Source: Atopobium sp. BS2 (GTDB taxonomy: Bacteria; Actinomycetota; Coriobacteriia; Coriobacteriales; Atopobiaceae). Taken from it: a stretch of 64,000 nt of DNA. The translations under genes and the position numbers were made by a program. The stretch is taken from NCBI RefSeq assembly GCF_000565075.1, contig NZ_JDFG01000012.1, positions 1-64,000 of the forward strand, read 5' to 3'. The notes under the pieces were generated by a model, which did not search any database, had not been told where the DNA came from, and saw only the letters and a list, made by a program, of their open reading frames with translations. Of the stretch, positions 3,852 through 63,855 are shown one piece after another. How positions within the stretch are numbered: position 1 is the first letter of the stretch; each line of letters begins with the position of its first letter.

Positions 3852-4115
3852 TTACTCGTCTAAATATGCAGTAGAAGGCGCTGCGGTTGTATCAGTAATT
3901 GCAGCTCCTGCCTGGGACTCATCAAGCAGAACCTTAACCTTCTGCTCTGCAGTATCAAGCCTTCCACGAAGATCCTTTACCAGCTCAACGCCACGAGCAT
4001 ACAGAGCCAAAGACTCCTCGAGCTCCAAATCTGTGCCCTCAAGCTTACGAACAATCTGCTCAAGCTCAATAGAAGCATCTTTAAAAGTCAGCTCTTCAGT
4101 CTTCTTAGTATCCAT
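3852..4115 (-). CDS. xseB: Exodeoxyribonuclease VII small subunit
   Basis: The 87-residue helical subunit binds XseA to form the single-strand-specific exonuclease VII. The family pattern is clear: FKDASIELEQIVRKLEGTDL, then LEESLALYARGVELVKDLRG, giving a two-helix hairpin. The C-terminal tail is acidic and poorly conserved. It starts 14 bp past the xseA stop with an AAGGGGA ribosome site, so the two subunits are made from one message. Confidence 0.95.
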   Translation of the reverse strand: MDTKKTEELTFKDASIELEQIVRKLEGTDLELEESLALYARGVELVKDLRGRLDTAEQKVKVLLDESQAGAAITDTTAAPSTAYLDE

Positions 4116-4129
4116 GTTGTTCCCCTTAT

Positions 4130-5479
4130 CTATGAAAGCTCAATATCAGAAACAGTTGCCTTAATTGTTCCATCCGTCATTTTGACCAGCAATGAATCTC
4201 CAACCGAGGCATCTTTGGCCGTTTTAATGACAGACCCCTTTTCATCTTGGACATATGCATATCCCCTTGTAAGAACCTTTAAAGGAGAAAGTGCATCTAG
4301 TTTTCCTGCAAGCGAAGAAAGAGAAGCCTCATATGGATGAAGCATGGCTGCACTAGCTCTGGTAAGTCTTTGCGACTCAACAGAAAGCATCTCTTTTTTT
4401 CTTAAAAGAAGCGCTGGTAGAGCATCCATTAATCTTTGCTCTGTCTGATTAAGATCTTCCGTTCTCGTAGAAATAATATAAGCAGGATCTTTTAGACACG
4501 GACGATCAGACAGCTTCTCTAGCTGGAATTTTTTACTTGATAGGGCATTTCTCATTGCCAAGTTGGAACGCTGTGCAACAGTAGTTAGATCCGTCTTATA
4601 GAACTGCAAAATCTTTCTTGTTGCGTTTCCAAGGCGAGAAATTCTGTTGTTAAACGTAGTTTGTAGCTCACTAATAGCGGGCGCCACAGACTCTGCAGCA
4701 GCTGTTGGCGTTGAAGTTCTTCTATCAGAAACCATATCTGCAATGGTGGTATCTGGCTCATGGCCAATACCTGTAATAACAGGTACAGGACACGCTGCGA
4801 TAGCACGCGCCACTCCCTCGTCGTTGAAGCACATAAGGTCTTCAAATGAGCCTCCACCACGCACCAGCAAGATTGCATCTGGACGTGTAGTTGCGGCCAC
4901 CTGAAGCGCCCTAATGATAGTTGCGGGTGCATGAGTACCCTGAACAGCGCAGCCAGACACTTCAAGCTCTACTAGAGGGTTTCTACGCGCAAGCGTACGC
5001 TTAACGTCATCAATGACGCTGCCAGAAAGTGACGTAACTACACCAATGCGTGTACAGAACTCTGGAATGTAGCGCTTTCTGGAAATATCAGTAAGACCCT
5101 CTTTTTCTAGCTTTTTAGCAAGCTGGGCAACCTTTTGACGAAGGTCTCCTTCTCCGGCAATCTGAATAGTGCGAGCATGAAAAGAAAGCTTGCCGCTTGA
5201 AGCGTAAATATCAAACTTTCCTGTCATCTGAATCTTCATACCGTCTTGCAGCGTAATGCCGCTAGCAGCATAAATCTTTGACCAGACGATAACCGCCATA
5301 GAGCTAACAGGGTCTTTTACGTCAAAGTAGCAATGACCAGATTTGTAGTTTGGTCCTCTAAATCCAGAAACCTCTCCCACTACCGTCATAGATGGCATTG
5401 AAGCAACTTCATTTTTTGCAAAGAGCACTGCATCAGATACTGAAAGAACAGAATCTTCTTTCTCTTGAATCTGATCCAT
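4130..5479 (-). CDS. xseA: Exodeoxyribonuclease VII large subunit
   Basis: The catalytic subunit of exonuclease VII degrades single-stranded DNA and takes part in repair. The 449 residues show an N-terminal OB-fold (VVGEVSGFRGPNYKSGHCYF), the catalytic core with RGGGSFEDLMCFNDE, PVITGIGHEPDTTIADMVSD and RTSTPTAAAE, then a long coiled-coil region and a small C-terminal module (TRGYAYVQDEKG). Its start lies 2 bp after the stop of the zinc protease gene, suggesting translational coupling. The length is typical. Confidence 0.96.
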   Translation of the reverse strand: MDQIQEKEDSVLSVSDAVLFAKNEVASMPSMTVVGEVSGFRGPNYKSGHCYFDVKDPVSSMAVIVWSKIYAASGITLQDGMKIQMTGKFDIYASSGKLSFHARTIQIAGEGDLRQKVAQLAKKLEKEGLTDISRKRYIPEFCTRIGVVTSLSGSVIDDVKRTLARRNPLVELEVSGCAVQGTHAPATIIRALQVAATTRPDAILLVRGGGSFEDLMCFNDEGVARAIAACPVPVITGIGHEPDTTIADMVSDRRTSTPTAAAESVAPAISELQTTFNNRISRLGNATRKILQFYKTDLTTVAQRSNLAMRNALSSKKFQLEKLSDRPCLKDPAYIISTRTEDLNQTEQRLMDALPALLLRKKEMLSVESQRLTRASAAMLHPYEASLSSLAGKLDALSPLKVLTRGYAYVQDEKGSVIKTAKDASVGDSLLVKMTDGTIKATVSDIELS

Positions 5480-5481
5480 TA

Positions 5482-6168
5482 CTAGTTCCTGTTTCTAGAA
5501 GAACCAAGTAGATATAAAAGCTGAAGTGCAGAAACCATTGCAGCAGCTACATAAGTAAGAGCAGCAGCAATTAGTACCTTTTTAGAGCCATTGTAGTCAA
5601 AGCCTGCGGGAGCGTTTGCCTTCAAAAAGGCCAATCCACGCCTTGAGGCATCAATCTCTACAGGAAGCGTAACTATATGGAACAAGAAGGTAAATGCATA
5701 GAGCCAAATTGCAAGCACAGTCATGCCTGAAACATTGAGCAAGACACCAGCAAGAAAGACATAAATCCACGCTGCAGATGCCAAATTAACAACAGGAACA
5801 AGAGCGGAACGAACGCGAGATGGCATATACATTTTGGCTGTCTGAACTGCATGGCCTGCCTCGTGACAAGAAACAGCAACAGAAGCTACGCTGCCCTCTG
5901 AGAAGTTTGCATCAGAGAGGTGCAGGCAATTGTCACGTGGATCATAGTTATCGGTAAGTTCACCAGAAATCCTCTTGATACCAACATTAGCTGCTCCATT
6001 TGTGTCCATCATGGCGCGAGCAACAGAAGCGCCGGTGGCATTAAACCCTGAAGGAACTAAAGAATACTTTTTAAATTCATGCTTGATGTACCACTGAGTG
6101 CCCAATCCGAGCACCAACGAGGCAACTACTAGAACAACGTATGGGATAAACGCACCAGAGTAATACAT
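5482..6168 (-). CDS. Membrane zinc metallopeptidase (YugP-like)
   Basis: A 228-residue integral membrane protein of the neutral zinc metallopeptidase family. The zinc motif HEXXH is seen in SCHEAGHAVQ. A first membrane segment starts at residue 6, a central hydrophobic pair follows the HEAGH motif, and a further segment lies at the C terminus. The family also has the D(N)CLHLSDANF segment seen before the motif. The substrate is unknown. It is the first gene of the run leading to xseA, xseB and the HIT gene; that arrangement is by position, with no functional link known to me. Confidence 0.88.
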   Translation of the reverse strand: MYYSGAFIPYVVLVVASLVLGLGTQWYIKHEFKKYSLVPSGFNATGASVARAMMDTNGAANVGIKRISGELTDNYDPRDNCLHLSDANFSEGSVASVAVSCHEAGHAVQTAKMYMPSRVRSALVPVVNLASAAWIYVFLAGVLLNVSGMTVLAIWLYAFTFLFHIVTLPVEIDASRRGLAFLKANAPAGFDYNGSKKVLIAAALTYVAAAMVSALQLLYLLGSSRNRN

Positions 6169-11770: not shown

Positions 11771-12619
11771 ATGAGCAAAGCAGATCGCATTTTTATTGAT
11801 ATGTGTTCCGACATTATTGAAAACGGCACCACCACCGAGGGCGAGAAGGTCCGTCCTACCTGGGAAGATGGTACCTCTGCATACACAATCAAGAAGTTTG
11901 GCGTCTGCAATCGCTATGATTTGCGTGAGGAGTTTCCTGCGCTGACGCTTCGCCGCACTGCGCTCAAGAGCGCCATGGACGAAGTTCTGTGGATTTATCA
12001 GAAGAAGTCCAATAACGTGAACGACCTCAACTCTCACATCTGGGATTCGTGGGCTGATGAGTCTGGCTCCATTGGCAAAGCTTACGGTTATCAGGTTGGA
12101 CAGGTTTCTCACTATGCTGACGGCGATTATGACCAGATGGATCGCGTGCTCAAGGATCTCAAAGAGAATCCATTCAGCCGTCGAATCATGACCAACTTGT
12201 ACACCTTTGCCGACCTCTCTGAGATGAACCTCTACCCTTGCGCATTCAACGCAATCTATAACGTTACTCAGGAGCCAGGCAAAGACAAGCCAACGCTTAA
12301 CCTGTTGCTTGTTCAGCGTAGTCAGGACATTCTTGCTGCTAACAACTGGAATGTTTGCCAGTACGCAATCCTGTTGATGATGGTTGCGCAGGTCAGCGGC
12401 ATGGAAGCTGGCGAGCTGGTTCACATGATTGCCGACGCTCACATTTACGATCGTCACGTGGATATTGTTAAAGAATTGATTTCTCGCCCAACCTTTGATG
12501 CACCAAAGGTGAGCCTGAACCCTAATGTCACCAACTTCTACAACTTCACTACTGACGACCTCATTGTCGAAGATTATCAGCACGGTCCTCAGGTTAAAAA
12601 CATTCCGATCGCTGTTTAA
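11771..12619 (+). CDS. thyA: Thymidylate synthase
   Basis: Methylates dUMP to dTMP using methylene-tetrahydrofolate and yields dihydrofolate. The 282 residues carry the catalytic Cys in MNLYPCAFNAIYNV, the dUMP-binding QRSQDILAANNWNVCQYA and the C-terminal HIYDRH. The residue after the catalytic PC is Ala-Phe where many ThyA proteins have His, so this belongs to a divergent branch closer to the Bacillus ThyA type. The start at 11771 has GAAGGA at good spacing. It is followed by folA, the enzyme that recycles its dihydrofolate product. Confidence 0.95.
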   Translation: MSKADRIFIDMCSDIIENGTTTEGEKVRPTWEDGTSAYTIKKFGVCNRYDLREEFPALTLRRTALKSAMDEVLWIYQKKSNNVNDLNSHIWDSWADESGSIGKAYGYQVGQVSHYADGDYDQMDRVLKDLKENPFSRRIMTNLYTFADLSEMNLYPCAFNAIYNVTQEPGKDKPTLNLLLVQRSQDILAANNWNVCQYAILLMMVAQVSGMEAGELVHMIADAHIYDRHVDIVKELISRPTFDAPKVSLNPNVTNFYNFTTDDLIVEDYQHGPQVKNIPIAV

Positions 12620-12768
12620 ACGCAGCTGCTGCGGACGCGGTTGACGCAGACGCGGCTAGCGCGGCAGACACGCCCAATCGGACATGACCGGTACAGCCGG
12701 TATGCCCGAGCGGACGCTCAAGCTAAGACCATCATTTCATTTAAGACGATACTTGCCAGGAGAACCAC

Positions 12769-13257
12769 ATGAACGCAATTGTTTCTGTAACACACGATTG
12801 GGGCATCGGATGCGACGGGGACCTTCTCATCCCCAACAAGGCCGACATGAAGCATTTTGTCGAGCATACGCGCGGTTGCACAGTTGTCATGGGCAGAAAG
12901 ACGCTGGAGAGCTTCCCTGGCGGACCGCTTAAAGGTCGCCGCAACATCGTCATCTCTAGAAACGCCGATTACCAGGTCGAAGGCGTTGAGGTTGTGTCGT
13001 CGGCAGAGGAAGCACTTCGTTTAGTTGAGGATGAAGCTCCCGAGAAGGTCTGGCTTATTGGTGGAGCTTCGATTTACCGCACCCTTCTCGACAAGTGCTC
13101 TTACGCGTACGTGACAAAACACGACACCGTAGTTGACGCGGACACATACTTCCCCAACCTGGATGAAGACCCTGCGTGGGAAGTTTGTAACGAGGAAGAC
13201 GGCGGCGTGACTCCGGAAGGCATCGCTTTCAAGTTTGTTACCTACAAGCACGTTTAA
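12769..13257 (+). CDS. folA: Dihydrofolate reductase
   Basis: Reduces dihydrofolate to tetrahydrofolate with NADPH. The 162-residue length is normal. Motifs visible are NAIVSVTHDWGIGCDGDLL at the N terminus, VVMGRKTLESFPGGPLKGR for cofactor binding and VWLIGGASIYRTLLD. The AGGAGA ribosome site precedes the ATG. A GC-rich 150-bp spacer with no clear gene separates it from thyA; coexpression is likely because ThyA consumes methylene-THF and releases dihydrofolate. Confidence 0.95.
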   Translation: MNAIVSVTHDWGIGCDGDLLIPNKADMKHFVEHTRGCTVVMGRKTLESFPGGPLKGRRNIVISRNADYQVEGVEVVSSAEEALRLVEDEAPEKVWLIGGASIYRTLLDKCSYAYVTKHDTVVDADTYFPNLDEDPAWEVCNEEDGGVTPEGIAFKFVTYKHV

Positions 13258-13365
13258 CTGGTGTGCGCGATCTACAAGGCCGTTCAGTCTCTGCGCGTTC
13301 AATCGTATGAATTTCATGTTGATTGGTCGAAACGTTTCATAGACTCTTTGATTTAGTTTTTATCT

Positions 13366-13409
13366 AAGTCCTCTTTTACCTGCATGTATGAGGGGACTTT
13401 TCTTGTTTT
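13366..13409 (+). terminator. Probable terminator after folA
   Basis: An imperfect hairpin (AAGTCCTC at 13366 paired with a GGGGACTT arm ending at 13400) is followed by TTTTCTTGTTTT. It lies about 110 bp downstream of folA and before the AT-rich nuclease-like gene. Confidence 0.55.
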
Positions 13410-13499
13410 GGAAGATTCGAGTTAAAGGGCTGGCAAACAACCGACAGATTGCTGAAAAATCGTGCTGGTATATTCGTTTCTCATTCTAAGGAGGAGCGG

Positions 13500-14543
13500 A
13501 TGGATATTATTTTCTCGCATGAAACTGCACTACAAATCTGCGCACAACTTAAGACACGCAGAAATGATGATGTTCTTTTGCAACGGACAACGAGGGATTT
13601 GCGCGCAACATATTCTGCGTGTTCAGATGAGGTGTATGAAGAAAAACTCCGATTTCTTAAGAAAGAATATGGCATAGTCTTGTCTAAAACCACTCATGAA
13701 ATACTCAGAGACAATTTAAGGACTAGATTTTCTGAAACGCGAGTATCACACCAGTTCAAATGTCTTTTGCCGGCAGGCTCCCTTATTGATCTGGGGCAGA
13801 ATATTTATTGTGTTACGCCTTCCCTAGCTGTTTGCTTACTCTCTAGGAATAAAAGTCCTCTTCATCAGATTGTGCTTGCGAATTTACTGATGGCCAGTTA
13901 TGGTCATCTCCCAAACGGTGAGCTCTGCGAATTTGATACGTCGTTGGTTGCTCCGAACGAAATTGCGTCTCTATTGAATGCGCTTGAACCTTATTCTCCT
14001 GGATTACATGTCACACAAAAGAATATGCGCTTTTTCTTTTCTGATGCAGCCTCTCCCATGGAAGTAAAGATGGCAATTAGATCTGCTCTCCCATATTGTG
14101 AAGGTGGTTTCAATCAAACGCCAATTGCGTTGAATAAATCGTATGTAATAAAAGACCAAATAAACCCAGGGATACCAGCAAAAGAACGAAAGCTTGATTT
14201 GCTGTTCGGGAAGATGTCTAAATCAAATTTGTCTGGATTAAATTTAGTGGCTATCGAATATAACGGTGCGTATCATGATGACTTCTACCAGCAAAGAAAA
14301 GATAATCAAAGAACTAACGAACTGAACTCAGTGAGTATTAAAGAGTACTTTGTAAATGCGGATATCTACAGGAATCAGCTGGCAATGCAAAATATGTTCC
14401 TGAGCATTAAAAAAGACTTGGGAGACAGCAATCTGTACCGGATCAAGCAGACGCTGCGCCAGTATTCTCATGAGCAATTCATTTTGATGAATAAACTTGA
14501 CTCAATATACAGATTTATGAATGAACTAATATATAAAGTTTAA
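13500..14543 (+). CDS. Predicted PD-(D/E)XK nuclease-like protein (DUF559/VSR-like C-terminal domain)
   Basis: A 347-residue protein with no certain family name. The first 170 residues look like a DNA-binding or regulatory region of the AbiEi-antitoxin kind (IIFSHETALQ). The second half carries a nuclease-like pattern: SPMEVKMAIRSALPYCEGG, then D233 in KLDLLFGK, and E253/N255/H259 in VAIEYNGAYHDD, followed by RKDNQRTNEL. This order matches DUF559 and very-short-patch-repair-like endonucleases. A textbook AAGGAGG site fixes the start. The gene is visibly richer in A+T than its neighbours and lacks the dispersed TGGCGAGAA word, suggesting transfer. The function is inferred; a defence role is possible. 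Confidence 0.6.
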   Translation: MDIIFSHETALQICAQLKTRRNDDVLLQRTTRDLRATYSACSDEVYEEKLRFLKKEYGIVLSKTTHEILRDNLRTRFSETRVSHQFKCLLPAGSLIDLGQNIYCVTPSLAVCLLSRNKSPLHQIVLANLLMASYGHLPNGELCEFDTSLVAPNEIASLLNALEPYSPGLHVTQKNMRFFFSDAASPMEVKMAIRSALPYCEGGFNQTPIALNKSYVIKDQINPGIPAKERKLDLLFGKMSKSNLSGLNLVAIEYNGAYHDDFYQQRKDNQRTNELNSVSIKEYFVNADIYRNQLAMQNMFLSIKKDLGDSNLYRIKQTLRQYSHEQFILMNKLDSIYRFMNELIYKV

Positions 14544-14579
14544 CTATCCCTAAATTGCCCTATGTGACAACACAGCAAA

Positions 14580-14634
14580 GTCAGATAATCTGCAAAATTC
14601 GATGTCAATAGCACATCAAATGAAGATATTCTGC
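14580..14634 (-). repeat. 55-bp spacer repeat, copy 2 (inverted)
   Basis: Read on the minus strand this starts GCAGAATATC and ends GCAGATTATCTGAC, matching 37-91 at about 39 of 55 positions without gaps. The ends are conserved and the middle is not. Confidence 0.5.
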
Positions 14635-14774
14635 ACTAAACACGCATTTTTGGAGCAATGTATAGCCTTTTTTGACAGATTATGTGACATAGGTGTGTTT
14701 TGTGAATCTGTAATCGTAGGTCCAATTAAATTTGCCCCTCGGGCGATTAGGTAGAAGGTTTAGAAAGCCAACAA

Positions 14775-14811
14775 AAGAGCCGGTTACCTGGGTTTTAGGT
14801 AACCGGCTCTT
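14775..14811 (-). terminator. Terminator hairpin of adhE (possibly bidirectional)
   Basis: A perfect 14-bp stem (14775-14788 with 14798-14811) closes a 9-nt loop and lies about 80 bp past the adhE stop. Moderately T-rich sequence follows on both strands, so it may end transcription from both directions. Confidence 0.75.
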
Positions 14812-14893
14812 GCTTTGTGCTTTACGCGCTTCGTGGTGGGCGCTCCGGGGTGGATGCGCTACGTAGCGGTTGCGACTGTGACGCACGCGAGAG

Positions 14894-17512
14894 TTAGTCC
14901 TCGTAGAAGCCTGGCTCGCGACCGTAGTAAGCATCCAGGTAGAGCTCGCGGAGCTCGGAAACAAGTGGATAGCGTGGGTTTGCGCCAGTGCACTGGTCAT
15001 CGAATGCCTGCTCGGACATCTCATCAAGGGTATCGAGGAAGTACTTCTCATCTACGCCGTAGTCCTTGATGGTCTCCTTGACGCCGATGTATGCCTTGAG
15101 CTCCTCAATCTTCTTGACGAAGTTCTCAAAGACCTCACGGTCATCCTTGCCGGTAACGCCGCAGAAACGGCCTGCCTCAGCGTAACGTGCGAGGGTGTGT
15201 GGATGATCGTATTGTGGGAAGGTTCCCATCTTTGTTGGACGCTCAGCTGCGTTGTAGCGCATAACGCGAGTAAGGATAACTGCGTTTGCCCAACCGTGTG
15301 GAATGTGGTGGAAAGCGCCCAGTTTGTGAGCCATAGAGTGGTTGATACCGAGGAATGCATTAGCAAATGCAAGACCACCCAGGCAGGAAGCATTTGCCAT
15401 GTGATCGCGTGCCTCAACATCGTTTGGATTGTCATAAGCACGTGGCAAGTACTCAAAGACCAGCTTCATGCCGCGAAGAGCCATGCCATCTGTGTAGTCA
15501 GATGCCATCATAGAGACAAATGCCTCGAGGCAGTGAGTAAGAACGTCGATACCAGAAGCAGAGGTCAGGCCCTTAGGCTGGCTCATCATGTTGTCGGTAT
15601 CAACAATTGCCATGTTAGGCAGCAACTCGTAGTCTGCAAGTGGGTACTTAACGCCGTTGTCAGCATCAGTGATGATGGCAAATGGAGTTACCTCGGAACC
15701 AGTACCAGAAGAAGTTGGAATAGCAACGAAGAATGCCTTGTTGCCCATCTTAGGATAGTTGTAGACACGCTTGCGGATATCCAAGAAGTCCGCTGCCATG
15801 TCCTCAAACTTCTCCTCTGGGTTCTCGTACATGGACCACATAATCTTACCTGCGTCCATAGCAGAACCGCCGCCGATTGCGATGATGCAGTCTGGCTCGA
15901 AGGAGCGAATGCGAGCTACACCCTCAAGAGCGCACTGAAGTGTTGGGTCTGGAGCAACATCCCAGAATGAAGAGTGGACGATGCCCAGGGAATCCAGAGT
16001 CTCCTCGATGGTCTTGGTGAAGCCACTCTTGTATAGGAACTGGTCTGTGACAATGAAGACGCGCTTCTTGTTGTAGACCTCTTTGAGCTCACGGAGAGCA
16101 AGAGGCATGCAGCCCCTCTTGAAGTAGACCTTCTCAGGTACACGAAGCCAAAGCATATTCTCTTGCCTCTCTGCAACAGACTTGTAGTTAAGCAGGTGCT
16201 GTGGGCCAACATTGCCGGAGACGGAGTTGCCGCCCCAGGTGCCGCAGCCAAGGGTTAGGGATGGAGCCATCTTGAAGTTGTAGAGGTCTCCAATACCACC
16301 CTGAGAGGAAGGTGTATTAATCAGGATACGGCAGGTCTTCATTGCCTCCTGATGCTTAGCAATCTTCTCTTTCTCGTTAATGTTGACGTAAAGAGAGCTG
16401 GTGTGACCGTAGCCACCATCAGCAACAAGACGCTCAGCCTTAGCAATAGCCTCGTCAAAAGTCTTTGCACGATACATGCCAAGAACTGGAGAAAGCTTCT
16501 CGTGAGCCATCTCTTCTGAAGGCTCAACAGAGGTTACCTCGCCGATAAGAACCTTGGTCTTCTCTGGAACATCAACACCAGCGGTCTTTGCAATGAAGTG
16601 AGCAGACTTACCAACAATACCTGCGTTAACAGCGCCGTTAACAATGACGGTCTTACGGACAGCGTCAAGCTCTTTGCCCTGGAGGAAGTAGCAGCCGCGA
16701 TCAGCAAACTCCTTCTTAACCTGGTCATATACGCTGTCAAGAACGGTAACGGACTGCTCGGAAGCGCAAATCATACCGTTATCGAACGTCTTGGAGTGGA
16801 TGATGGAGCTAACTGCAAGCTTGATGTCTGCAGTATCGTCGATGATAACAGGAGTGTTACCAGGTCCAACGCCCAGAGCTGGCTTACCAGAAGAGTAAGC
16901 TGCGTTAACCATACCTGGACCACCGGTTGCCAGGATGATGTCAGCATTGCTCATGACTGCTGCAGTCATATCAATGGTAGGAGCTGGTACCCAGTCGATA
17001 ATACCCTTGGGGCAGCCGGCCTTCTCGGCAGCATCGCGAACAATACGAGCGGCAGCAATGGTGCACTCTTTTGCGCGTGGGTGTGGGGAAATGATAATGG
17101 CGTTTCTTGTCTTCAGAGCAAGAAGTGTCTTAAAGATTGCGGTAGAAGTTGGGTTAGTAGTTGGAATAACTGCAGCTACGATACCCATTGGCTCGGCTAC
17201 AACTCGATAACCTGCAGCTGGATCATCCTCTACAACACCACAAGTCTTCATATCCTTGTATTTGTTGTAAATATACTCTGCTGCGTAATGGTTCTTGATA
17301 ACCTTATCTTCCATTACACCCATGCCAGTTTCTTCAACTGCCATGCGAGCAAGAGGGATACGATTTTTCTCAGCCGCAAGAGCAGCTTCATAGAAAATCT
17401 TATCGACCTGCTCTTGAGTGAATGTTGCAAACTCTGCCTGTGCTTCGCGCATCTCTTCGAGGCGCTTGAGCAAAGTATCAACATCCTCAATTTGAGTAGC
17501 CTTCTTTGCCAT
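14894..17512 (-). CDS. adhE: Bifunctional acetaldehyde-CoA / alcohol dehydrogenase
   Basis: Reduces acetyl-CoA to acetaldehyde and then to ethanol, regenerating two NAD per turn in fermentation. The 872 residues have the normal two-part layout. The N-terminal aldehyde dehydrogenase half carries the catalytic Cys in DNGMICASEQSV. The C-terminal iron alcohol dehydrogenase half carries AIGGGSAMDAGK, and metal-binding His residues in NHSMAHKLGAFHHIPHG. AAGGGG precedes the ATG, and a TATAAT box lies upstream at 17546-17551 on the minus strand. It is the ethanol counterpart to AckA in this window. Confidence 0.97.
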   Translation of the reverse strand: MAKKATQIEDVDTLLKRLEEMREAQAEFATFTQEQVDKIFYEAALAAEKNRIPLARMAVEETGMGVMEDKVIKNHYAAEYIYNKYKDMKTCGVVEDDPAAGYRVVAEPMGIVAAVIPTTNPTSTAIFKTLLALKTRNAIIISPHPRAKECTIAAARIVRDAAEKAGCPKGIIDWVPAPTIDMTAAVMSNADIILATGGPGMVNAAYSSGKPALGVGPGNTPVIIDDTADIKLAVSSIIHSKTFDNGMICASEQSVTVLDSVYDQVKKEFADRGCYFLQGKELDAVRKTVIVNGAVNAGIVGKSAHFIAKTAGVDVPEKTKVLIGEVTSVEPSEEMAHEKLSPVLGMYRAKTFDEAIAKAERLVADGGYGHTSSLYVNINEKEKIAKHQEAMKTCRILINTPSSQGGIGDLYNFKMAPSLTLGCGTWGGNSVSGNVGPQHLLNYKSVAERQENMLWLRVPEKVYFKRGCMPLALRELKEVYNKKRVFIVTDQFLYKSGFTKTIEETLDSLGIVHSSFWDVAPDPTLQCALEGVARIRSFEPDCIIAIGGGSAMDAGKIMWSMYENPEEKFEDMAADFLDIRKRVYNYPKMGNKAFFVAIPTSSGTGSEVTPFAIITDADNGVKYPLADYELLPNMAIVDTDNMMSQPKGLTSASGIDVLTHCLEAFVSMMASDYTDGMALRGMKLVFEYLPRAYDNPNDVEARDHMANASCLGGLAFANAFLGINHSMAHKLGAFHHIPHGWANAVILTRVMRYNAAERPTKMGTFPQYDHPHTLARYAEAGRFCGVTGKDDREVFENFVKKIEELKAYIGVKETIKDYGVDEKYFLDTLDEMSEQAFDDQCTGANPRYPLVSELRELYLDAYYGREPGFYED

Positions 17513-44468: not shown

Positions 44469-44732
44469 TAAAATTTCCTATTTTAAGTTATCTCCTGTTC
44501 AAGGCATAATTCTGAATATTTATCCCGCCTCTTGTTTCTTCATGAGTGCTGGTGTTTTTTAGACGAGTTAGAGATTTTTCCACGGCTATCTCTGTTTTCA
44601 CAGACATCTTATTGGCAATTTTCTTCTTTACTTGTCATGATCAACTTTTGATTTATTAAATTGAATATTCATGCAATTAAATTCATTTCCATGAATACGT
44701 AATTTTTGCGCTCAAAATTATGTGCCGAAAAA

Positions 44733-44880
44733 GGTAAAAAACGCGTTTAGTTGGAAATGAAAATTAAAAATTAGACGTTTTATCTCCAACTAAGACGATT
44801 TTTTACCGCCTCAAAAACTTTTATCTGGACAAACGTTGTATGCAGAAAAATGTAATCTCCAACTAAACGCATTTTTTACC
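44733..44880. repeat. Inverted-repeat element, copy A (three 23-24 bp modules)
   Basis: GGTAAAAAA plus CGTTTAGTTGGA at 44733-44756 is mirrored by CCAACTAAACGC plus TTTTTTACC at 44858-44880; a variant third module in the second orientation lies at 44785-44807. The same pair bounds 63678-63855, where the right-hand 23-bp module is identical. The interior sequences differ. No transposase or target-site duplication is seen. Both copies lie shortly downstream of tRNA genes. Confidence 0.75.
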
Positions 44881-44977
44881 GCTTGAGGATATGTTTTGAC
44901 TCAACCAGTGTTGATTGCACAGACTGCACAGGCCAACGCCCAACTAAGCATCTACCCTGCTCTACTTTACCAGCAAA

Positions 44978-45008
44978 AAAGAAGGCTGTGCGAAGCACAG
45001 CCTTCTTT
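44978..45008 (-). terminator. Terminator of the second LPXTG gene
   Basis: A perfect 14-bp stem (44978-44991 with 44995-45008), GAA loop and a minus-strand T run, located 24 bp past the stop codon. Confidence 0.92.
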
Positions 45009-45032
45009 GCACTTGTAATCTATACGCCAAAA

Positions 45033-46922
45033 CTAACGGCGAGCCTTTACAGAGTACGCAAGACCGGAAGCAATAATACCTGCAGCAGCAAGTGCGCTTG
45101 CAATGGACATTGCATCGCCAGTATCTGGCAGGTTAGACCTCTTCTTCTTAGGAGTCTTAGGCTTTGGCTCTGGATTAGGCTCCGGCGTTGGGGTTGGTGT
45201 AGGAGTTATTGGCTTATCAGCTGTAGCAACTTCCGCAGGAACAATGGTCTGATCTGCAGCATTGAATGTTGCAGGAGCTACCGTAAATGGAATCTGATTT
45301 GCATTGAGTTCATATCCCTCTGGAGATGCAGTCTCAACCAGGTAATAATTGCCTGGCGTCAGATAGAACTTATCTCCATCCTGATAGATACCCTTAGTCA
45401 ACAAATCTGCAGTTGCCGCAGTGTTCTGAACCAGTGTAGTCAGCTCAGTCTTTGTAAGAACATCTCCGGATGTAAAGGTACCGTCTGCACCAGTAGTAAG
45501 CCCCTCTTTAACCAATGTGCCATCGGCTTTGTAGAGGCTATACGTTGCACCAGCGACAGGCTTGGAGGCATCATCAGAGTCAGTCTTCACAAGCTTCAAA
45601 GGAGAAGGAACTGCACGATACGTGAGGTAATACTGCCTGGTACGGTTTACAGAACCATCTGCGTTGAAGCCAGGGGCTAAAACCGAATTATCACGAGGGC
45701 CAGAGTTATACGTACCAATTGCAAGAGATGTTCCCTCTGGAACATCAATATCGTTTGCAATGTAGACGTAAGAATCACCAGGTCCCGCAGACTTAATCTC
45801 GTCAACCGACTTGCGAACAGTGGTCAGCAACAGATTAGTTGAAGGATCAGTCTCGAACTTATTACCGCCGGCAACAGAGTCATCTGCAGCAACGCCAGCA
45901 TACTCGGGCATGTACACAACATGACCCTTTGTGTTGTAACGCGCAGACACCTGACGATCCTCAAATGCTGCGGAGGTTGTATATGTAGCAGCCAGATCAT
46001 CAAGACCAAGAACACTTACTGCACCGTTACCATAAATAGGAAGGCCAGCATTTCTTTGCGCAATAGGATCACTTAGACCAAGACCATTAAGCTGCCTGTA
46101 TGCAAGATCGTCGACATAGTGATACACAGCCGTTGCTGTATCAATGACACGCGCAGGATAACGTTTGGTGTATGCGTGAGTGCCTCCCCAAGATTTCTTA
46201 ATGCCACCCTGAATTCCCAGTTGATAAGACCTATCAGAAATGTTCAGTGGTGCGGAGAACTCAATGTACTGACGAGCTGTGACTGGTGCAGTAAATACAG
46301 CAGCAGGCTCTTCATAAGAAGTGCCGCCCATAATAGACTGACCATTAACCTTGACGGTAAACATCAAATTAGTCTTTGGACCACCACCCGAAAGAGCACC
46401 TGTTGCATCCATTGGTTTGTACGTATCAACAGCAGAATGAACAGAAACGGCCACCTTACGCAGGCCATAACCATTTGGATCATTGTGTGGGAAGTTGAGC
46501 AGGTTATCCGTATCGCCGAGAAGAACGTAGTAAGCGCGAATTTCTCCGCCTTCAGCAATCATCTGCGCAACGGAATATTTAGTTGGATCCATGTCCAGCT
46601 TGAGCGCAGTACCATCGGGCTTTACCCAGTAATAACGAACGATGACACCTGTACGATCTTCTCGCGGCTTAGCCGCCTGAGCGGTAATCTCGGCCTGGAT
46701 TTCAGCATCAGAAATAAAATCTGGGAACGGGTTGGCAACGGTCTGAGTTCCATCAAGCGGCGCGCCGTCCACATCATCGGAATAAATTGCTGGGTCAGCA
46801 GCATATGCCGTGTGTGGAAGAGTAAACGCCAAAATTGCACCCACAAATAGCATAAGAATTGCTAAAACCGTAAAGCGAGAAAATCGAGTGCTTCTAACGC
46901 TTCTAACAGAAGTGCTGTTCAT
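45033..46922 (-). CDS. LPXTG-anchored surface protein with SpaA/Cna B-like domain
   Basis: A 629-residue exported wall protein. A signal peptide (about residues 1-42, ending HTAYAADP) precedes a large N-terminal region I do not recognise. A collagen-binding B-like or SpaA-type domain follows (LKLVKTDSDDASKPVAGATY to YYLVETASPEGYEL). A Thr/Pro repeat spacer (TPTPTPTPEPNPEPKP), LPDTGD, a hydrophobic segment and KARR complete the sorting signal. The start at 46922 is preferred because GAAGGA precedes it. No sortase or second pilin gene adjoins, so it may be a lone adhesin, not part of a pilus cluster. Confidence 0.85.
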   Translation of the reverse strand: MNSTSVRSVRSTRFSRFTVLAILMLFVGAILAFTLPHTAYAADPAIYSDDVDGAPLDGTQTVANPFPDFISDAEIQAEITAQAAKPREDRTGVIVRYYWVKPDGTALKLDMDPTKYSVAQMIAEGGEIRAYYVLLGDTDNLLNFPHNDPNGYGLRKVAVSVHSAVDTYKPMDATGALSGGGPKTNLMFTVKVNGQSIMGGTSYEEPAAVFTAPVTARQYIEFSAPLNISDRSYQLGIQGGIKKSWGGTHAYTKRYPARVIDTATAVYHYVDDLAYRQLNGLGLSDPIAQRNAGLPIYGNGAVSVLGLDDLAATYTTSAAFEDRQVSARYNTKGHVVYMPEYAGVAADDSVAGGNKFETDPSTNLLLTTVRKSVDEIKSAGPGDSYVYIANDIDVPEGTSLAIGTYNSGPRDNSVLAPGFNADGSVNRTRQYYLTYRAVPSPLKLVKTDSDDASKPVAGATYSLYKADGTLVKEGLTTGADGTFTSGDVLTKTELTTLVQNTAATADLLTKGIYQDGDKFYLTPGNYYLVETASPEGYELNANQIPFTVAPATFNAADQTIVPAEVATADKPITPTPTPTPEPNPEPKPKTPKKKRSNLPDTGDAMSIASALAAAGIIASGLAYSVKARR

Positions 46923-63677: not shown

Positions 63678-63855
63678 GGTAAAAAATCCGTTTAGTTGGA
63701 GTTTATTTTTGGTCTTCGAAGTTTTGGCACTTACGTTTACCCAGCTCAGAAATTTTGTACTAATTTCCACAATTTTGTCCACGCAAAATTGCTGGTAGAT
63801 GGACTGCATAGAAACTAAGCATTTTTGGATACTCCAACTAAACGCATTTTTTACC
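63678..63855. repeat. Inverted-repeat element, copy B
   Basis: The left end GGTAAAAAA plus CGTTTAGTTGGAG (63678-63701) faces the right end CCAACTAAACGC plus TTTTTTACC (63833-63855). The right end is identical over 23 bp to 44858-44880. The interior has no coding potential. It starts about 180 bp past tRNA-Arg and its terminator. Confidence 0.75.

Follow-up and report, generated by a model that had tools for sequence, protein, structure and literature searches.

What is the function of a lone nuclease-like gene that stands between folA and adhE in Atopobium sp. BS2 and is followed by a spacer full of repeats? The gene, here called X (13500–14543, + strand, within the window, the 64,000-nucleotide stretch of DNA that was analysed), is an open reading frame of 347 amino acids with homologues throughout the family. 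It is convergent with adhE, and folA and thyA lie upstream. The ATG start codon at 13500 is preceded by a ribosome-binding site, GGAGGAG (13490–13496, + strand), read directly from the sequence. Further upstream, 3′ of folA, lies a terminator-like hairpin, AAGTCCTC..GAGGGGACTT followed by a T-rich tail (13366–13409, + strand). The original prediction had listed a terminator and a ribosome site of the gene's own; the latter is plainly there, whereas the hairpin is visible by eye and is missing from the list of a consensus terminator scan with a loop limit of 8. The gene is AT-rich as had been noted (GC 39% versus ~50% in the flanks), and this low GC is a trait of the X copies of the genus, homologues in Olsenella and Thermophilibacter having a GC content about equal to that of their own flanks. 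Rfam gave no match within 12000–16000, and a structured RNA at the locus was rejected on that basis. The enzyme known to accompany dispersed repeats of the REP type is RAYT, an HUH transposase. We propose, with a probability of roughly 0.58, that X acts in trans as the enzyme of a comparable, REPtron-like unit consisting of a gene and its cognate dispersed repeats, in which a PD-(D/E)XK-type nuclease most likely takes the place of RAYT.

The protein matches nothing in PADLOC (0 families at E 10), NCBIfam or the PDB sequences, and its best Pfam match, to DUF6669, is sub-threshold (E 0.042). A PDB search with a profile of the X family returned SpbK alone (E 0.078). The Pfam families REase_MTES_1575 (PF18741) and DUF559 (PF04480) have an E..D..(E/D)..H arrangement of the same kind as that in X; the window protein itself matches neither, and the E-values across 28 X members are weak (REase_MTES_1575 in 7 of 28, best E 0.0073; DUF559 in one, E 0.085). 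MTES_1575 is a Vsr-family REase according to the description in PMC3710099. An AlphaFold2 model of X, built with 27 sequences, has a pLDDT of 81.9 and a pTM of 0.76. Foldseek found no PDB match to this model under E 0.001, and our statements on the fold rest on a second structure aligner. The top match to residues 185–309 (14052–14426, + strand) is the EDxHD homing endonuclease I-Bth0305I (3r3p; Z 9.0, rmsd 2.5, 95 aligned of the chain's 97 residues); a pair of mitoribosomal chains follows at Z 8.1 and 7.5, and the lower rows include TnsA (Z 5.5). This match and the invariant residues described below mark out a predicted VSR/EDxHD-like PD-(D/E)XK nuclease domain, and we regard the C-terminal nuclease fold as fairly secure. 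A VSR-type nuclease is what the original prediction had called for, and the model does contain the restriction-endonuclease-like fold on which that claim had been staked.

The N-terminal part (residues 1–180; 13500–14039, + strand) had been likened to AbiEi. Modelled alone as residues 1–181 (pLDDT 82.7), it aligns with AbiEi (6y8q) at Z 7.9 (rmsd 3.7, 117 residues aligned), with an unrelated 60-residue match nearly equal (Z 7.5) and MenT1 toxins at Z 6.2–6.5. The AbiEi segment concerned is residues 67–195, that is, the C-terminal antitoxin domain and not the winged helix, which was not recognised in this part of X in the structural alignment. The likeness therefore stands for one domain of AbiEi and not for its winged helix, and we hold with moderate confidence that the N-terminal part resembles the C-terminal, nucleotidyltransferase-like domain. 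Neither Rv2827c nor Vsr is among the structural matches listed for X, an absence that carries no weight. The N-terminal part diverges faster than the C-terminal part (median pair identity 49 versus 55%), which is the behaviour one would expect if it determines specificity.

The site of the nuclease is intact and conserved. E188, D233 and H259 are invariant in all 28 aligned homologues, as are D268, R271 and E274, and position 253 is E in 21 and D in 7. All five residues picked out beforehand (E188, D233, E253, N255 and H259) occur where they had been placed, but position 255 is free to be N, D, H, L, Q or K, so that N255 falls outside the conserved site. For scope, A1 took in 28 of 34 loci and A3 took in 26 of 29 named loci.

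Members of the X family occur in 131 of 140 Atopobiaceae genomes (profile search, E 1e-5), often in 5 to 18 copies per genome (14 candidates per genome scored), and in 269 of 396 genomes of a sample of the class Coriobacteriia at E 1e-10. These counts bear out the original prediction's mention of similar lone proteins in Coriobacteriia. All but two of the class matches listed are in Coriobacteriales, and the named bearers are Olsenella, Thermophilibacter and other Atopobiaceae. The genome of the window (G000) itself holds two divergent paralogues, on contigs C22 and C48. The adhE slot is occupied by an X member in five of five genus genomes, the adhE proteins of which are 89–99% identical to that of the window; the X protein of the slot is 82% identical to that of the window in G001 and 28–31% identical in G002, G003 and G004. 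A tree unites the adhE-slot genes at only 84/86 support, on long branches, and X may occupy the slot either by descent or through replacement. Between G000 and G001 (L037), X has a dN/dS of 0.086 and a dS of 1.19, about two to four times the synonymous divergence of the neighbour genes (0.33–0.68), which marks it as constrained yet fast-diverging. Recent acquisition, as the original prediction had supposed, was rejected given a slot kept in all five genus genomes and the low dN/dS. In Olsenella-like genomes the members are spread over a small number of shared slots, without a neighbour family that recurs in all of them.

A role in defence had also been suggested, and we consider it very improbable that X is a lone defence nuclease whose repeats are self-marking or incidental. 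Such a nuclease would fit the fast divergence of the protein and a precedent in PMC3710099, where a conflict-system protein is described as having a VSR-like REase of this type, but PADLOC gave no match, no defence genes were seen in the neighbourhoods examined, no relative was found among viral contigs, and the cognate dispersed repeats would be left unexplained. The viral contigs were scanned once, with query A2, and none of the 27 stretches matching a pattern was a relative; phage cargo was rejected on the same scan. A type IV toxin–antitoxin system was rejected as well, there being no nucleotidyltransferase partner and the neighbours in the window being folA and adhE.

The repeats are the second half of the locus. 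As foreseen, the spacer after X is repeat-bearing: motif search located a 24-nt motif, A, that is present three times, two copies being direct (14569–14592 and 14610–14633, + strand, 41 bp apart) and one inverted (14676–14699, − strand), copies 1 and 3 forming the arms of a hairpin on folding. A simple finder of exact repeats missed the copies because they have diverged too far, and an exact 12-mer metric is 0 for the window. The motif is nevertheless real, as 90 sites across the genome compare with 0 for the reversed pattern. Paralogues are accompanied by other motifs.

This arrangement recurs across the family. Exactly repeated 12-mers in the 500-bp flanks cover a median of 149 bp for 33 X genes and 0 for 195 same-locus control genes, and at least 60 bp of flank repeats were found for 27 of 33 X genes as against 15 of 195 controls (Mann-Whitney p 9e-18). 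The test took in 24 of 29 named loci and all nine genus genes, with L064, L067, L071, L074 and L075 left out for a short flank or a broken or partial gene; the X genes of the window, G001 and L047 score 0 because their copies have diverged. The signal is weaker in other clades (7/20 versus 2/48, p 1.5e-4), where 20 members were sampled from the many matches beyond the closest clade, and 7 of these 20 score 0 for exact flank repeats. Most of the relatives examined adjoin a private repeat, with arrays often downstream of X or at both sides; one such flank inspection covered 19 of the 29 named loci. Direct copies are spaced at 41–42 bp in motifs that have no obvious sequence in common (A and those of L048, L056, L061 and L068), at 30–33 bp in motif D and at 73 bp in motif B.

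A different kind of repeat, common across genera and unlike the private motifs, consists of short words, for example GTCAGATA (or AACGCGGATCC), that recur every 10–11 bp just 5′ of many X genes. These words were seen upstream of the X start codon at L040, L041, L052, L053, L058 and L062 and at the Eggerthellaceae-like L096 and L109, and they are possibly the site of a common regulator.

Each of the four private motifs searched genome-wide is dispersed through the genomes that hold its own X gene. Motif A has 90 sites in G000 and 33 in G001, the two genomes with similar adhE-slot genes, and none in G002, G003 or G004. G003 and G004 share one X gene type in the adhE slot; its motif, D, has 64 sites in each of these two genomes and none in G000, G001 or G002. 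Motif B comes from the C48 paralogue, a gene that G000 alone possesses, and has 37 sites there and none in the other four genomes. Reversed-pattern controls for A, B and D gave 0 throughout the five genomes. Among 31 Olsenella-like genomes, the named loci led us to expect L052-type X in G090, G097 and G112 alone, an expectation that preceded the motif search but was written down together with its result. The corresponding motif has 38, 75 and 40 sites in these three genomes, 0 in 23 and 1–2 in five. In the last of the three, O. uli An733 (G112), the L052-type gene (L067:8001–8573) has a broken frame and encodes 191 amino acids, and the 40 motif sites persist. Nine motif patterns searched against 49 loci matched only at their own locus or at those of close relatives. 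For the four families searched genome-wide (A, B, D and L052-type), one X thus pairs with one repeat family, with the exception of the 1–2 stray sites in five of 31 genomes. The window itself contains a partial A array of two copies at the left contig end (38–102, − strand) and two B arrays cognate to motif B of the C48 paralogue, one of three copies at 44733–44880 and one of two inverted copies at 63678–63855, neither assigned to a strand; all three were located by motif search.

The dispersed copies have a fixed structure and were copied whole. Of the 35 A clusters counted in G000, 22 have the identical layout ++− at 41/66 bp, although this genome is a draft in which clusters at contig ends may count twice; the single contig of G001 has its 33 sites in 11 clusters. 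Arrays of motif A stand at the ends of G000 contigs C12, C16, C18, C22, C33, C34, C39 and C44, and the breaking of many draft contigs at such arrays indicates that the repeats limit assembly. Copies are 79–92% identical to one another over about 350 bp, and 226 bp of the element are homologous to the X locus itself (14477–14702, + strand; 67% identity, E 3e-29 against a consensus of nine copies), a stretch that comprises the array and the last ~67 nt of X. Similarity of this length, together with the leftover piece of the 3′ terminus of X, argues that the A elements arose by copying rather than as operators or binding sites that evolved independently, and it points to a copied miniature element apparently derived from the end of an X unit. 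The outer arms of the elements form a hairpin (ssDNA z of −3.3, −6.9, −6.4 and −5.9 in four elements) and are paired in 94% of cells versus at most 43% when slid. Four pairs of the A arms have changed on both sides, a count that 280 of 500 shuffles also reach; the covariation score is 0.097 against 0.059 shuffled, with 0 of 500 shuffles above, and is inflated by related copies. A further hairpin, GAACTGCCTCC..GGGAGGCAGTTC, adjoins many dispersed A elements (L078, L082, L083 and L087), in some copies at both sides like an outer boundary.

These features bear on the alternative that X is an AbiEi-type DNA-binding regulator or chromosome organiser, for which the arrays would be binding sites, some other transposase would have spread the elements, and the nuclease fold would serve binding or rare repair. 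We consider this unlikely. It would agree with the resemblance of the N-terminal part to AbiEi and with the intergenic position of the arrays, since 17 of 20 checked overlap no ORF of at least 100 amino acids (the other three overlap ORFs of about 104–117 codons), but the dispersed copies contain a remnant of the X gene, arrays often lie downstream of X or at both sides, all 28 homologues keep the same four residues at the nuclease site, and a winged helix was not found. As described in PMC7319586, AbiEi and Rv2827c bind 23-bp inverted repeats, of which Rv2827c has four within 131 bp, and both autoregulate through them; the size and layout are close to those of the X arrays. Compared with these type IV antitoxins, X shares the domain matched to AbiEi residues 67–195 but has no winged helix in the alignment, has no toxin partner and is fused to a nuclease. 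The same precedent makes it plausible that an AbiEi-like domain recognises the arrays in a REPtron-like unit.

Comparison of G000 with G001 shows differences in the presence of units and elements. The C22 gene with both of its inverted arrays (4005–5755) faces only 49 bp at the orthologous site, G001 has 99 and 70 bp opposite two B elements of about 600 bp, and the C48 gene is absent from between the Fe-ADH and deoC genes. The B array at 44733 lies within a stretch of the window of ~2.1 kb after tRNA-Gly (44499–46632), comprising the array and most of a 646-aa ORF, that is absent from the G001 counterpart as a whole, so that this case is not a clean element insertion; the B array at 63678 has no G001 alignment beyond the element. 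Comparison of these sites, the flanks of which are about 10% diverged, revealed no clean target-site duplication, with a possible 22-bp direct repeat at C22 only.

Absence of the C22 unit from a relative, inverted arrays that flank X like long terminal repeats, and a homing endonuclease as the closest solved fold could all be read as signs of ordinary selfish homing or IS-type elements, with MITE-like repeats as remnants and the present X genes as relics that have no continuing role. This is improbable, because three things speak for a function that continues: purifying selection on X (dN/dS 0.086), a gene that has kept one slot in five of five genus genomes and a small number of common slots among Olsenella relatives, and the divergence of gene and repeat in step. 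I-Bth0305I has the same catalytic fold as X and the same kind of acidic/His site, and it acts on long DNA targets according to PMC3943268. X differs from it in being chromosomal, intergenic and paired with dispersed repeats, and no intron or phage context was found for it. Each end of the transposon Tn7 carries an array of sites of about 22 bp. It is similar to X in these site arrays and in its PD-(D/E)XK nuclease TnsA, which is matched by the X model as given above, but X is a single gene with no DDE transposase or other Tn7 gene adjoining.

The closest parallel is the REPtron, in which RAYTs are described as distinct single-copy genes, each flanked by REPs of its own (PMC3733652, PMC3116915, PMC8266576). 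In the terms of these descriptions, REPtron and X unit alike consist of a lone gene with flanking repeats that are also dispersed extragenically as inverted hairpin doublets, and each gene has a repeat of its own; the REPtron gene is single-copy and largely vertical within species. At the X loci, repeats flank the gene, inverted hairpin doublets are dispersed in extragenic DNA, and each of the four repeat families has its own X. The two differ in that X is, by predicted fold and invariant residues, a VSR/EDxHD-like nuclease and not an HUH/Y1 tyrosine transposase, in that inspection of the consensus sequences of A, B and D shows no GTAG tag, and in that direct copies at X are often phased at 41–42 bp. 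Not being an HUH transposase, X would work like a REPtron enzyme without being one.

In the REPtron-like reading that we prefer, each X protein would recognise its own 22–27-nt repeat, present as phased and inverted copies beside the gene and as hairpin-forming miniature elements in intergenic DNA. The VSR-like domain would nick or cut at the elements, and repair or strand transfer would then copy them into new sites, with the gene staying put, like those of RAYTs, and evolving along with its repeat. We infer binding and cleavage by X, and that X and not another enzyme moves the repeats, from the pairing of gene and repeat, the nuclease site and the X remnant within the elements. In no genome did we notice, incidentally, a second X unit nearly identical to the first. 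This counts against the reading, as do the lack of a clean target-site duplication, the lack of a recognisable winged helix, the persistence of the motif in G112, the members outside the closest clade that score 0 for exact repeats, the count of two-sided changes that shuffles often reach, and the possible double counting of clusters in the G000 draft.

More tentatively, at somewhat short of an even chance, the X genes could represent a class found across the order Coriobacteriales, in which one VSR/EDxHD-like PD-(D/E)XK protein both reads and spreads private, phased hairpin repeats with no DDE, HUH, tyrosine or serine recombinase involved, the repeats diverging along with the protein while the gene remains in place. 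In this group of gut and mouth bacteria, X and its many relatives with private repeats look like a novel means by which small DNA repeats are propagated or kept, and we found no account of such a nuclease–repeat pairing in the open-licence literature on REP/RAYT, MITEs, coriobacterial repeats, AbiEi and DUF559/MTES_1575. If X is a second enzyme, unrelated to RAYT, with the same one-gene-one-repeat logic, then this lifestyle arose twice, and a role would be assigned to a family that fills Coriobacteriales genomes. The many natural protein–repeat pairs would offer a ready set for learning how the N-terminal part reads a 22–27-bp site, and would also suit tests of whether the repeats serve the host or themselves. 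As a separate observation on repeats in these bacteria, GGCGAGAAGAACC / GGTTCTTCTCGCC is very frequent in the intergenic spacers of the Olsenella loci L047–L070, sometimes right after a TACAAT box.
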